A DNA stretch of 50,317 nt from Bacteroidales bacterium (lineage in GTDB: Bacteria > Bacteroidota > Bacteroidia > Bacteroidales > UBA932): NCBI GenBank assembly GCA_030695025.1, contig JAUYTX010000026.1, positions 1 to 50,317 of the forward strand, in the 5' to 3' direction. A model generated the notes under the pieces. It saw only the letters and a list, made by a program, of their open reading frames with translations, made no database searches and was not told the DNA's origin. Below are positions 24,047 through 41,121 of this stretch, piece after piece (position 1 is the stretch's first letter; the number at the start of each line of letters is the position of its first letter). A program made the position numbers and the translations under genes.

Positions 24047-25693
24047 TCAAATTATGCCTTTACTGCTGGGAACCGATTGTAAATTGCCGGATGCCAGTGC
24101 CATTTTAAGTGCTCTTGCAAACGCTTTAAAAACGGCCTCTGCTTTGTGGTGGTCATTCTCTCCTTCTGCCTTGACATTAAGAGTGAATTTTCCTGCCGAA
24201 GCAAGGGTTGAAAAGAAGTGTGCAAACATTTCACAAGGAAATTCTCCAATTTTATCGCCTCTGAAATCTACCTTCCAGTTAAAGCCAGCTCTCCCTCCAA
24301 GATCTATCAGAACTGTTGCCTCTGATTCGTCCATAGGAAGAGAAAAGCCATATCTTTCATAGTTCCCGGCTGATGTGAAATATCTGTTGAGAGCATCTCC
24401 CAGTACTATTGCTACATCCTCTACGGTGTGGTGAAAATCTACCCAAAGATCTCCGGAGACATCAATATCAAGAGATATTCCCCCGTGTGTTGAGATCTGT
24501 TCAAGCATATGATCAAAAAAGCCTATGCCTGTATTCAAGCTTGAAAGTCCGGCTCCGGTGAAGTCTGCCTTAAGTGTGATTGCAGTCTCTCGCGTTATCC
24601 TTGACACCTCCACGAAGGGGTTCAGAGGAAAAATAAAGGGCTCTTTTCCAAAATTCGAAATGAGCATTATTAGCCTGTCGTTCTCTGCCGGCTTACCTAT
24701 TGTTATTCTTAAACATCCCTCACATCCAGATACTTTGCTTCTGTCTCTTACAATAACTCCGTTATTCAGCAACAGATTGTACATTTCTGTGGCATTCCTG
24801 AATTTTACAAGCAGAAAATTTGCGTTGCTGTCATATACCTTTACAACCTCTGAAAGCTCTCTAAGACTACTTGCAACTCTCTCCCTCTCTGAAAGAATTC
24901 CACCCAGGGTTTTACTCCCCTCTCTAATCCTTTTGATTGCTAACTCCTGGCTAATCCTATTTAAATTGTATGGATATTTAACTCTGTTAAGATATGTTAT
25001 CACCCTGGCGTTTCCAAAGGCAAATCCAACCCTCAGTGCTGCCATTCCCATTGATTTTGACATGGTCTGCAATACGATAAGATTAGGGTACTCACTCAGC
25101 AAAGGTATATAACCCTCGTCGCCCGAAAAATCACCATAAGCCTCGTCAACTACCACAATTCCCTTAAACTTTTTTACAATACCAAGTACTGCCTCTTTAT
25201 CCAGCAGGTTGCCTGTAGGGTTGTTTGGAGAACAAAGGAAAATAACCTTTGAATTATTATCAGACAAATTTACAAGCGCCTGAGTATCCAAGGTGAAATC
25301 AACTTTTAGCGGAGCCTCCCGGTATTCAATATCATTTATCGATGCTGCAACTTTATACATCCCGTATGTCGGAGAGATTGATACTATATTATCTCTACGC
25401 GGCTCACAAAAGACCCTCATAATAAGGTCAATAGCCTCATCACTTCCATTACCGGCAAAGATCATATCCTCGTTAACTCCTTTTTTTAAAGCCAGTTCAC
25501 GCTTTAATAACTTATGGTGTGGGTCGGGATATCTGTTGTACCCCATATTGTATGGGTTTTCGTTTGCATCAAGATAGGTTCCGTACCCTGCATTACTCTC
25601 ATCTCTTGCTGTTGAGTATGGGGTGAGCCTTTTTATATTTTCCCTGATTATTGATTCGGGAAAGTTTTCTGATCTTGCAGTTGTCATGGTCAT
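24047..25693 (-). CDS. hisCB: HisC-HisB fusion: histidinol-phosphate aminotransferase + imidazoleglycerol-phosphate dehydratase
   Basis: A 548-residue single reading frame. Residues 1-355 form a PLP aminotransferase (LDANENPYN 41-49, SPNNPTG 155-161, VVDEAYGDF 181-189, PLP lysine K213 in TMSKSMG, ALRVGF 219-224). Residues 361-548 form a complete IGP dehydratase (TGIGFFDHML 388-397, HHTVED 421-426, PMDESEA 453-459, DHHKAEAVFK 514-523), with the Mn-binding His/Glu residues kept in both halves. Thus one protein does steps 6 and 7 of the pathway, in the reverse order of its domains. The HAD histidinol-phosphatase domain that fronts many HisB proteins is absent. Joining adjacent genes hisC and hisB in the usual operon order explains the fusion. 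Confidence 0.93.
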   Translation of the reverse strand: MTMTTARSENFPESIIRENIKRLTPYSTARDESNAGYGTYLDANENPYNMGYNRYPDPHHKLLKRELALKKGVNEDMIFAGNGSDEAIDLIMRVFCEPRRDNIVSISPTYGMYKVAASINDIEYREAPLKVDFTLDTQALVNLSDNNSKVIFLCSPNNPTGNLLDKEAVLGIVKKFKGIVVVDEAYGDFSGDEGYIPLLSEYPNLIVLQTMSKSMGMAALRVGFAFGNARVITYLNRVKYPYNLNRISQELAIKRIREGSKTLGGILSERERVASSLRELSEVVKVYDSNANFLLVKFRNATEMYNLLLNNGVIVRDRSKVSGCEGCLRITIGKPAENDRLIMLISNFGKEPFIFPLNPFVEVSRITRETAITLKADFTGAGLSSLNTGIGFFDHMLEQISTHGGISLDIDVSGDLWVDFHHTVEDVAIVLGDALNRYFTSAGNYERYGFSLPMDESEATVLIDLGGRAGFNWKVDFRGDKIGEFPCEMFAHFFSTLASAGKFTLNVKAEGENDHHKAEAVFKAFARALKMALASGNLQSVPSSKGII

Positions 25694-25703
25694 TTTTTTA
25701 TTG

Positions 25704-26993
25704 TTATAATCGCTGACTAATTTGCCTAAGCCTTATTTCGCAGGCGTTTTTGTGTGCATCAAGCCCCTCGGCAGCTGCCATGTCCGAAATTACCGGCCCA
25801 AGGTTTTTAATGCCCTCGCTGCTTAATTCCTGAAAGGTAATTGTCTTCATGAAACTCTCAAGTGAGAGCGAACCCTGAGATCGCGCCCATCCGTTGGTTG
25901 GCAGAGTATGATTGGTTCCTGAGGCATAATCCCCTGCGCTTTCAGGTGACCAATTTCCGATAAACACACTCCCGGCCGCAGTTATCCTATTAGCTATCTT
26001 CCATGGATTCTTAAGAGCAATAATAAGGTGTTCCGGTGCATAAAAGTTTGAAAAAGCAACCATGCTCTCTCTGTTTGCAAACACTATCACCCTGCTTGTT
26101 TCCAGCGCCCCTTCAATCTCATTGTATCTTGGCAAAGAGGCCTTTTGCTCATTGACAGCATCAATACATTTTTGTGCCAACTGCACAGAGTTACATAACA
26201 AAATGACCTGAGAATCTGAACCGTGTTCTGCCTGTGAAAGCAGGTCTGCTGCTACAAAATCGGGCTCTGACGTCTCATCAGCCATTACCAGTAATTCCGA
26301 AGGACCAGCAACCATGTCTATCGAAACATATTTACTCACAAGTTGCTTGGCAACCGATACATACTGGTTTCCGGGGCCAAATATCTTGTCAACTTTTCTT
26401 ATGCTTTCCGTTCCAAAGGCCATTGCTGCAATTGCCTGCGCTCCTCCAACCGTTACCATATTGGTCACTCCGGCTTTATAAGCTGCATATGTAATAGCGG
26501 GGTTAATCGTTCCATCTTTTGAAGGAGGTGTAAAGAGAGTAATCTCACTGCAACCGGCAATCTTTGCAGGAAGAGCCAACATTAGAACGGTTGAAAAGAG
26601 TGGTGCTGAACCTCCGGGAATATAGAGGCCGACCCTCTCTACCGGAAGGCGCTTCATAATACATCTCACCCCTTCTGTTGTTGTCAGGTCAATATCTTCT
26701 CTAACCTGAGCCCTGTGAAATTTTTCAATGTTTTCACATGCGGTGTCAATTGATCTTTTAAGCTGATTATCAATGGCTGTTTCCGATTCTGTCAGAATAT
26801 TTTTATCTGAATAAAGAGATTTAAGTTCAACTCCGTCATATTTTTGGGTGAGATCGTACAGAGCCTTGTCACCCTCTTGTTTCACATAAGAGATAATCTC
26901 GGAAACCCTCAGTTCAACAACAGGGTTATCTCCCGATGGCCTGGATGCAAGCTCCTGCCATACTTCTCTTTGAGGTTCGATGAATAATTTCAT
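25704..26993 (-). CDS. hisD: Histidinol dehydrogenase
   Basis: A 429-residue, NAD- and zinc-dependent enzyme that oxidises histidinol to histidine in two steps. Recognisable motifs are VGLYIPGGSAPLFSTVLM, FGPGNQYVSVAK, AGPSELLV, SQAEHGSDSQV and YASGTNHTLPTNGWAR, which include zinc ligands and the catalytic Glu/His region. The length is normal. The start overlaps the last base of the hisG stop (TAATG arrangement), giving tight translational coupling. Confidence 0.97.
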   Translation of the reverse strand: MKLFIEPQREVWQELASRPSGDNPVVELRVSEIISYVKQEGDKALYDLTQKYDGVELKSLYSDKNILTESETAIDNQLKRSIDTACENIEKFHRAQVREDIDLTTTEGVRCIMKRLPVERVGLYIPGGSAPLFSTVLMLALPAKIAGCSEITLFTPPSKDGTINPAITYAAYKAGVTNMVTVGGAQAIAAMAFGTESIRKVDKIFGPGNQYVSVAKQLVSKYVSIDMVAGPSELLVMADETSEPDFVAADLLSQAEHGSDSQVILLCNSVQLAQKCIDAVNEQKASLPRYNEIEGALETSRVIVFANRESMVAFSNFYAPEHLIIALKNPWKIANRITAAGSVFIGNWSPESAGDYASGTNHTLPTNGWARSQGSLSLESFMKTITFQELSSEGIKNLGPVISDMAAAEGLDAHKNACEIRLRQISQRL

Positions 26994-27844
26994 TAGGGTA
27001 AAATTTTATCAAGTGAGAGGACAAGAATTCCCTCTGCGCCTATGGATTTTAACTTCTCAATTTTTGACCAGATATCTTTCTCCTCTACAACAACGTGCAT
27101 AGAACACCATCCCTTTTGTGCAAGTGGTAAAACTGTAGGACTTCTCATACCAGGAAGAATAACTATGGCATCTTCAATCTTCTCTTCAGGAAGGTTTAAA
27201 AGCATATACTTCATTCCGCGACTCCTTTCAACTGCTTCAAAACGGGCTATCAGCTGATTTACCTCTGCCCTCTTCTGCTGATCAAGGCTTCTGTTACTAA
27301 CCAATACAGCCTCTGAGAAGAAAACCTTTTCAACCTCTTTTAAACCATTGGTAATAAGGGTCCCTCCGGAACTTACAATAACAAATATTGCATCAGCCAT
27401 TCCGACAGAGGGAGCAACCTCAACAGAGCCGGCAATTTTATGAATCTCTGCTTTAATCCCCTTTTCAAGAAAATAGTTGGAAAGAATGGCCGGATATGAG
27501 GTAGCAACCCTTTTCCCGTTAAAATAGTCAAGGCCGCTGTACTCTGATGTCTTGGGTATTGCAAGTGATATTCTGCACTTGCTGAACCCCAGGTAGTGAG
27601 CAATATCAATGCTCAACCCCCTCTCCTCAACCTCATTTAGACCAACAATTCCAATATCGGCAACTCCCATTTCAACTGCTCCGGGTATGTCATCATCCCT
27701 TAGAAAAAGCACCTCCATGGGAAAATCCCCACATTTTGCCAGTAATTTTCTTTTGCCCTCTTCGATTAAGAGTCCTGATTCTGAGAGTAACTGCATACTC
27801 TCGTCGCTTAATCTTCCTTTTGCTTGTACCGCAATTCTTATCAT
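26993..27844 (-). CDS. hisG: ATP phosphoribosyltransferase (long form)
   Basis: A 283-residue first and committed enzyme of histidine synthesis, which joins ATP and PRPP. It has RIAVQAKGRLSDES at the N-terminus, DIGIVGLNEVEERG, the PRPP loop IVSSGGTLITNGL, and a C-terminal ACT-like domain (about 210-283) that mediates histidine feedback inhibition in the long form. No HisZ partner is needed. It is the first structural gene downstream of the attenuator at 27859-28006, so both enzyme activity and transcription appear to respond to histidine. Confidence 0.97.
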   Translation of the reverse strand: MIRIAVQAKGRLSDESMQLLSESGLLIEEGKRKLLAKCGDFPMEVLFLRDDDIPGAVEMGVADIGIVGLNEVEERGLSIDIAHYLGFSKCRISLAIPKTSEYSGLDYFNGKRVATSYPAILSNYFLEKGIKAEIHKIAGSVEVAPSVGMADAIFVIVSSGGTLITNGLKEVEKVFFSEAVLVSNRSLDQQKRAEVNQLIARFEAVERSRGMKYMLLNLPEEKIEDAIVILPGMRSPTVLPLAQKGWCSMHVVVEEKDIWSKIEKLKSIGAEGILVLSLDKILP

Positions 27845-27858
27845 AATAGATGTTTGTT

Positions 27859-27892
27859 AAAAAAAAGAGGGCTCACCTTTCGGTAAGCCCTC
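27859..27892 (-). terminator. Attenuator terminator of the histidine operon
   Basis: On the minus strand an 11-bp stem forms between GAGGGCTTACC (27892-27882) and GGTGAGCCCTC (27877-27867), with one G-U pair and a GAAA tetraloop, followed at once by eight T (27866-27859). It lies between the leader peptide and hisG. It is the strongest intrinsic terminator seen in the window and, placed before the first gene of the operon, must be regulated. Confidence 0.9.
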
Positions 27893-27916
27893 AAACTATA
27901 ATATATCTGATTTTGT

Positions 27917-28006
27917 TTATCTCATAGATACAAATAGCCATTCTTGCCTACCGTTTAACTGCAGGTGATGATGATGTAGTGAATGGATATTTGAAATAAT
28001 GTTCAT
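27917..28006 (-). CDS. hisL: Histidine operon leader peptide
   Basis: A 29-codon ORF with ATG at 28006 and TAA at 27919-27917. Codon 8 is His, and codons 11-14 are four consecutive His (CAT CAT CAT CAC, 27976-27965). A purine-rich AAAAAAGAGAG precedes the ATG. Just after the His run, GGTAGGC (27952-27946) can pair with GCTTACC in the 5' arm of the terminator (7 bp with one G-U), forming an antiterminator. It can also pair partly with CCTGC near the His codons. Low charged tRNA-His would stall the ribosome on the His run and favour antitermination. Too short for ordinary gene prediction. Confidence 0.88.
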   Translation of the reverse strand: MNIISNIHSLHHHHLQLNGRQEWLFVSMR

Positions 28007-28024
28007 CTCTCTTTTTTCAGGTTT

Positions 28025-28057
28025 CAAATGTAATGTAAATTTCTTTTTAATCACCAA
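28025..28057 (-). promoter_or_regulatory. Promoter of the histidine operon
   Basis: On the minus strand TACATTTG (28032-28025) matches the Bacteroidota -7 consensus, and a TTG at 28057-28055 lies 22 nt upstream, slightly more than the usual 19-21. Transcription would begin near 28018, about 12 nt before the leader-peptide ATG. The promoter begins only some 18 nt past the ccsA stop codon. Confidence 0.55.
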
Positions 28058-28074
28058 TTATTTTAAATAAATAT

Positions 28075-28851
28075 TTAGTAAACATGTATACTCCCTTGTG
28101 CAGCAGGGAGATAATTAACTCCTAGCCAGGTTATCATAAGCATTATAAATGCTAAGGGAAGTATCCACAGTATTATTCTGAGCGGATATTTTTGCGCCCT
28201 TGCATGAATATAGACTACATATACAGCTGCAGTGATAAATGCCCAGACCTCTTTTGGATCCCATGTCCAGTAATCTCCCCATGCCTCTTTAGCCCAAATA
28301 GCACCAAGCAACATTCCTGTCATTAAAAAACCAAGCCCTATGTAGATAAGATTATCAATTAGCGGCATAAGTCTTTCGCTTTTATTTTTTAACTCCCTGA
28401 TTGCAATAAACGATGCAATAGTTGCCGCACCAAACATGGCATAAGAGAGAATATAGACTGTTACATGGGGAACAAACCAGATACTTTGAAGTGCCGGCAT
28501 AAGGTTGGTAAAGTGTATTTCGGGCTTTAAAAGATTTACCATGATGAATACACCGGAAACAAGAACGCTGTACCCTGCCAACCATTTGTACCTCCAGCGT
28601 AACCAGGTTACAAAACCGACAAGAGTTATAAAAAAGGAGTACCAAAGCCTTGTCTCTCCCATTGTTCTGAGTGGTGGGTGTTTAAGATCACCCCACAAAA
28701 GGAGTATAAAGATTAAAAAAATTACCAGTCCGGCAGAAATAAGGATATTGCCGGTTAGAGAGGATTTTTTATTCATGTAAAGTGATGCCACTCCCAGAAT
28801 CCAAAGCAGCATAGAAGCTGCAGAAAACCATATAAAATTATCCCACATCAT
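28075..28851 (-). CDS. ccsA: Cytochrome c biogenesis protein CcsA (System II)
   Basis: A 258-residue membrane protein with about eight helices. It has the heme-handling WWD signature WGDYWTWDPKEVWAF (around residue 197) and conserved histidines in the flanking helices (HVTVYILSYAMFG; VYIHARAQ). With ResB/Ccs1 it carries heme across the inner membrane and attaches it to CxxCH motifs of periplasmic cytochromes c. It overlaps resB by 4 bp and belongs to the nrfHA operon, whose products carry nine c hemes in total. Confidence 0.88.
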   Translation of the reverse strand: MMWDNFIWFSAASMLLWILGVASLYMNKKSSLTGNILISAGLVIFLIFILLLWGDLKHPPLRTMGETRLWYSFFITLVGFVTWLRWRYKWLAGYSVLVSGVFIMVNLLKPEIHFTNLMPALQSIWFVPHVTVYILSYAMFGAATIASFIAIRELKNKSERLMPLIDNLIYIGLGFLMTGMLLGAIWAKEAWGDYWTWDPKEVWAFITAAVYVVYIHARAQKYPLRIILWILPLAFIMLMITWLGVNYLPAAQGSIHVY

Positions 28852-40317: not shown

Positions 40318-41121
40318 CTATATAGCTGTAAAGAGCGGCTTCCTGTTTTCATAGTTAACCACATATTTGTATCCCATATTTTTTAGAACGGCCCTGAAGT
40401 TTTCAAACTCCTCTCCCAGTCGCTCTTTTGAGTGAGCGTCAGATCCGAGGGTAATTATTTCACCACCAAGCTCACGGTATCTTAGAAGAATATCCCTATC
40501 AAGAACAGGTATTGCACCGTTTCTCAGCCTGTAGGTATTTGTATTTATCTCCAAAGATTTCCCGTTATATATCAGTGAACGAAATATAGTATCCAGAACA
40601 TCTGCATAATTCCGGTAGTGAATGATTCGTGTTTTATAGGGTGCATATCTGGCTATGTAGTCGTAATGCCCTAGTACGTCAAAATCAGGATATGCTACCA
40701 CCATTTCCGCCATAATTTCGAGGTATCGTCGGTAGGCCTCTTTCTCTGTTTTCCCTTCATAATATTGGCCCTCGTAAGGGTCAATGCCATCTACAAAGTG
40801 AATGGAGGCAATTATTGTATCAAAACTGAATTTTGACAAAAACTCTTTTATCTCAGTGAGATTACATGGCTGAAGACCTATTTCGATTCCGGTTAAAAGT
40901 TTAACGGGTGATTTTTTTGCAACTTCGTATATCTCTGCCTGCTGCTCTGCAGGGTCAAATGCAAACTTCAGATTGTCACCTGGAGCTTTAAGATCAAGGT
41001 GGTCAGTAAATGTAACCCCGGCCAAACCTATGTCCAAGGCATACTCAGCCGCTTCGGCTATACTCATCCGACTGTCGGGCGAGTAGCTGCTGTGTGTGTG
41101 AGTATCTACATATTTATTCAT
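40318..41121 (-). CDS. hisK: PHP-family histidinol-phosphatase candidate
   Basis: A 267-residue PHP-domain protein of the HisJ/HisK histidinol-phosphatase group. Metal ligands are DTHTH (6-10), TDHLD (39-43), E80 in GIEIG, H108 in SIHFVDG, H152 in GHYDY and D228/H230 in GSDAHS, covering the trinuclear site. It removes phosphate from histidinol phosphate in organisms that lack the HAD enzyme. No HAD histidinol phosphatase is found in the his operon here, making this a good candidate to complete the pathway, although PHP enzymes also act on other phosphoesters. It is the last gene of the ctpA-to-PHP unit. Confidence 0.8.
   Translation of the reverse strand: MNKYVDTHTHSSYSPDSRMSIAEAAEYALDIGLAGVTFTDHLDLKAPGDNLKFAFDPAEQQAEIYEVAKKSPVKLLTGIEIGLQPCNLTEIKEFLSKFSFDTIIASIHFVDGIDPYEGQYYEGKTEKEAYRRYLEIMAEMVVAYPDFDVLGHYDYIARYAPYKTRIIHYRNYADVLDTIFRSLIYNGKSLEINTNTYRLRNGAIPVLDRDILLRYRELGGEIITLGSDAHSKERLGEEFENFRAVLKNMGYKYVVNYENRKPLFTAI

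Follow-up and report, generated by a model that had tools for sequence, protein, structure and literature searches.

The his operons of Escherichia coli and Salmonella are controlled by a classical attenuator (RF00514), in which a short leader peptide upstream of hisG contains a run of His codons and the leader RNA can fold into protector, antiterminator and terminator hairpins that exclude one another. For the textbook trp attenuator, a ribosome terminating on the leader covers the antiterminator arm. A 2004 comparative survey of leader-peptide attenuators by Vitreschak et al. reportedly reached Bacteroidetes/Chlorobi, and the Bacteroid-trp motif is read as a Trp leader attenuator. This motif (RF01692) is listed among the putative cis-regulatory RNAs in Bacteroidetes (PMC2864571). 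In Flavobacterium psychrophilum, amino-acid operons are reported to carry leader-peptide attenuators (PMC9723704), and Bacteroides thetaiotaomicron has leader-like small open reading frames (ORFs) with suspected attenuation (PMC7366714). In a survey of his genes across the phylum, the word ‘leader’ does not occur (PMC8305728), and the open literature searched contained no account of a leader upstream of hisG in Bacteroidota.

Locus and promoter

We analyzed a window of 50,317 nucleotides representing one contig of a 2.25-Mb draft genome, which is a Rikenellaceae-like member of the Bacteroidales, with Rikenellaceae and Bacteroidales metagenome bins as its nearest named relatives. According to Pfam assignments, the minus strand carries a his cluster in the order hisG-hisD-hisCB-hisH-hisA-hisF-hisIE (27844 to 21183), with hisG as the first gene. 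Between hisG and an upstream gene on the same strand, we delineated the leader elements listed in Table 1. A preliminary description of this region had proposed ribosome-mediated attenuation on the basis of a −7 element, a 29-codon ORF with five His codons, four of them consecutive, a GGTAGGC segment pairing with the terminator arm, and a terminator with an 11-bp stem, GAAA loop and eight U. All of these elements proved correct to the base on the minus strand.

Table 1 Coordinates of the leader elements and flanking genes in the window
Feature	Position	Strand	Evidence
Cytochrome c assembly protein gene, upstream of hisG leader	28075-28851	minus	Pfam
Probable −33 element TTG, Bacteroidetes-type promoter	28055..28057	minus	Sequence
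−7 element TACATTTG (TAnnTTTG)	28025..28032	minus	Sequence and relatives
Leader peptide ORF MNIISNIHSLHHHHLQLNGRQEWLFVSMR, 29 codons, ATG 28006 to TAA 27917	27917..28006	minus	Sequence
Outer protector helix, 5′ arm CAAATATCCATTC, codons 5-9	27981..27993	minus	MFE and arm-swap test
Four His codons in a row, CAT CAT CAT CAC	27965..27976	minus	Sequence
Segment 1 CCTGC, inner protector, pairs with GTAGG of segment 2	27961..27965	minus	Alignment
Segment 2 GGTAGGC, antiterminator 5′ arm	27946..27952	minus	Pairing with segment 3, UA/CG covariation
Outer protector helix, 3′ arm GAATGGCTATTTG, codons 22-26	27931..27943	minus	MFE and arm-swap test
Antiterminator helix P2, 5′ arm (last leader codons)	27926..27939	minus	Folding and alignment
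Antiterminator helix P2, 3′ arm (spacer)	27894..27908	minus	Folding and alignment
Intrinsic terminator stem-loop (segments 3 and 4), 11 bp, GAAA loop	27867..27892	minus	Sequence and alignment
Segment 3 GCTTACC, common to antiterminator and terminator	27882..27888	minus	Folding and alignment
Eight-U tract directly after terminator stem	27859..27866	minus	Sequence
hisG	26993..27844	minus	PF01634 and PF08029 (Pfam)

In 21 of 22 relatives, the TAnnTTTG form of the −7 element lay 25–29 nt 5′ of the leader start codon, and 68 of 92 other leaders contained it within 60 nt; among shuffled 60-nt stretches, 3.6% contained the motif anywhere. By eye, a TTG or TTTG at a spacing similar to that of the −33 element is present in most relatives. 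Transcription would start a short way before the leader ATG, probably 10–20 nt.

Within the operon, HisC is fused to the HisB IGPD domain in a 548-amino-acid frame (24047-25693, minus strand) without a HisN phosphatase domain. This fusion occurs across the genus, and the two genes are mostly separate in other families of the order. All Bacteroidetes covered by a published survey have a bifunctional hisNB (PMC8305728). About 12 kb upstream of this operon (40318-41121, minus strand) lies a gene for a PHP-type histidinol-phosphatase family protein, which scored above the TIGR01856 cut-off and may provide the phosphatase activity that the HisC–HisB fusion lacks.

Conservation of the leader peptide

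To place the leader in a phylogenetic context, hisG upstream regions were gathered at genus, family, order, class and phylum level, and a His leader was scored as a short ORF upstream of hisG containing a stretch of seven codons of which three or more encode His. Of the 152 Bacteroidota hisG genes sampled, 114 were preceded by such a leader, compared to 8/152 for the reverse strand and 12/760 for shuffles; the 152 regions include close relatives and are not independent. Leaders were present in all 22 congeners, 18 of 23 other members of the family, 12 of 14 genomes belonging to different families within the order, all 29 sampled members of other orders of the class and, for HisG proteins ~37% identical or more, 12 of 19 representatives of other classes. 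None was detected in the 12 upstream regions associated with distant HisG (≤34% identity; L150–L161), so that the His leader seems to follow a single HisG lineage in Bacteroidota. The window has a short leader ORF rich in codons for the amino acid made by the operon that follows it. One region from another family of the order (L027, genome G047) encodes two serial His leader peptides upstream of hisG, MRQQKAHSIIHHHHHTSGMGK and MKIINRHSLHHHHHWEKPPEWKCCSMS. A separate terminator-like hairpin follows each of them, and the region is an apparent tandem attenuator.

These data also bear on the reading that the hairpin merely terminates the upstream cytochrome c assembly gene, with the His ORF being incidental. 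That gene does share the strand of the hairpin, which begins ~180 nt after its end, but a promoter intervenes, the reverse strand yields few His ORFs, and both the His leader and the sequence pairing with the terminator arm are retained throughout the genus and outside it, making this explanation highly improbable.

Across much of the genus, the leader peptide can be recognized as conserved along its 29 residues, including SNIHS and LFVYM, as might be expected if the nascent peptide arrested the ribosome on a ligand in a TnaC-like manner or acted as a functional His-rich small protein. Among ten representatives, however, the His run (codons 11–14) was free of amino-acid changes; pN/pS elsewhere was 0.4–1.0, with 0.41 for codons 5–9, which are under mild constraint, 0.98 for codons 15–23 and 0.68 for codons 24–29. 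Outside the His run, where pN/pS is not low and the conserved codons fall within the arms of RNA helices, base pairing accounts for the conservation better than the peptide does, and we set aside a peptide-level explanation for the conserved leader ends. Moreover, more distant leaders, with a median of 18 residues usually shorter than those of the genus, have only the His run in common. We, therefore, regard ligand-dependent arrest by the peptide, or a role for it as a small protein, as scarcely credible.

Alternative RNA structures

Pairing and covariation were counted in an alignment of 21 sequences. The GGUAGGC:GCUUACC helix between segments 2 and 3 was paired in all 147 cells, and folding segment 2 to segment 3 alone gave a seven-pair helix in 21/21. 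Together with the leaders found in 22/22 congeners, this 100% pairing shows that close relatives retain both the His codons and the pairing, a conservation on which the preliminary description had made its reading depend. Seven sequences have GGC/GCC in place of GGU/ACC, a compensatory U-A to C-G change in the antiterminator helix, which the terminator 3′ arm accompanies with a matching change. Such covariation of three segments is what pairing of segment 3 with two alternative partners would predict. Within segment 2, the swapped base occupies the third position of a Gly codon and leaves the peptide unchanged. The seven carriers comprise one clade of four and three separate sequences and, thus, do not represent seven independent events.

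In the window, the terminator stem has 7 G-C among its 11 pairs and is separated from the hisG start by 22 nt, providing an intrinsic terminator ahead of the first structural gene. Four of its pairs changed on both sides in the alignment, and its observed percentage paired was reached by 0 of 500 shuffles; misalignment of four longer-loop sequences in the 3′ arm lowered the terminator count. In a simple scan, no terminator-like hairpin accompanied the His leader of some more distant relatives, as would fit control at hisG translation rather than at transcription termination. Given the G-C-rich window stem followed by eight U at this distance from hisG, we consider control of hisG translation very unlikely.

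Folding placed a second helix, P2, enclosed by the segment 2:3 helix in nearly all sequences, with 77% of cells paired in its main part. P2 alone folded no better than shuffles in most sequences, and its support, therefore, consists of its shared position and paired cells. A protector hairpin comprises an inner and an outer helix. The inner 1:2 helix, CCUGC:GUAGG, was paired in 97% of cells (21 sequences). Evidence for the outer helix comes from folding and an arm-swap test: when the leader was folded without segment 3, the protector formed, with codons 5–9 pairing with approximately codons 22–26 in most sequences, and native arms paired more strongly than 88–100% of cross-species pairings in each of six lineages. 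Covariation of the outer protector did not exceed that of column shuffles in the 21-sequence alignment because pairing registers differ between clades. The leader region as a whole had a fold z of −4.5. Applied to the alignment, RNAalifold recovered the terminator and, of the remaining helices, just the inner 1:2 helix, as expected for structures that are alternatives.

Folding with a masked ribosome

We modeled translation by masking 15 nt both 5′ and 3′ of the P site. When the masked ribosome sat on the His codons, the antiterminator was favored at 0.88–1.00 in 21/21 sequences, whereas with a ribosome at the stop codon it dropped to 0.18 in the window. With the mask in the latter position, the relatives L009–L017 and L022 still favored or half-favored the antiterminator (0.53–0.99) in this crude model, which omits the steric cost of a ribosome within the antiterminator loop. 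The stop-codon mask extends to 27937 and leaves GGUAGGC free; a terminating ribosome would, thus, act on P2. For the window without a ribosome, equilibrium folding gave an antiterminator value of 0.92; termination of an untranslated leader would, therefore, require that the protector fold first as the RNA is transcribed. By covariation and masked folding, antiterminator and terminator are predicted to be mutually exclusive, with the former freed by stalling. Anatomy, conservation and the response to a ribosome on the His codons, a simulation that the preliminary description had proposed, together support its attenuation reading. It was also right that all parts are present, although its list lacked the protector hairpin and P2, the helix between segments 2 and 3.

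Proposed mechanism and significance

We conclude that the his operon is very probably controlled by a histidyl-tRNA-responsive, ribosome-mediated transcription attenuator. From the sequence elements and their conservation, covariation and thermodynamics, we infer ribosome stalling, termination and a histidine response as follows. When charged His-tRNA is scarce, a ribosome would stall at the four His codons, covering segment 1 and part of the upstream protector arm. GGUAGGC would then be free to pair with GCUUACC, reinforced by P2, and the blocked terminator would allow transcription from hisG onward. With plentiful His-tRNA, the ribosome would reach the stop codon and cover the P2 5′ arm rather than GGUAGGC, weakening the antiterminator so that the terminator could form. 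If the leader remained untranslated, the protector (codons 5–9 with 22–26, and CCUGC:GUAGG) should form first, likewise favoring termination. A more specific proposal, which we advance tentatively and at somewhat below even credence, is that the genus leader is a longer switch, in which RNA pairing in the protector and a two-tier antiterminator holds the non-His codons, and a terminating ribosome melts the second tier instead of covering the antiterminator arm in the manner of textbook trp.

The comparative evidence indicates that histidine attenuation through a translated leader is frequent in Bacteroidia and extends into further classes of Bacteroidota. The hisG leader ORF would escape ordinary gene calling. 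Attenuation requires RNA polymerase to be followed closely by a ribosome, and this attenuator, therefore, provides indirect evidence of transcription–translation coupling in a phylum that initiates translation largely without Shine–Dalgarno pairing.

Comparison with known systems

The leader gave no Rfam match at the gathering score, including to the RF00514 His_leader covariance model, and at E ≤ 10 nothing relevant was returned, with His_leader absent. It, nevertheless, resembles the E. coli and Salmonella his attenuator in combining a His-run leader with mutually exclusive hairpins upstream of hisG. It differs from that system in having four rather than seven consecutive His codons, in a leader of 29 codons, in a Bacteroidetes-type promoter and in the absence of a covariance-model relationship. 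Furthermore, a ribosome at the stop codon would here cover P2, not the antiterminator arm. Bacteroid-trp (RF01692) is a different family without a match at the hisG leader. The F. psychrophilum (PMC9723704) and B. thetaiotaomicron (PMC7366714) leaders belong to the same phylum and the same proposed mechanism class, and the portions of these accounts considered here mention neither hisG nor the structures described above. With leader-peptide attenuation already reported in Bacteroidota, the hisG leader is a new, well-supported case of a known mechanism.
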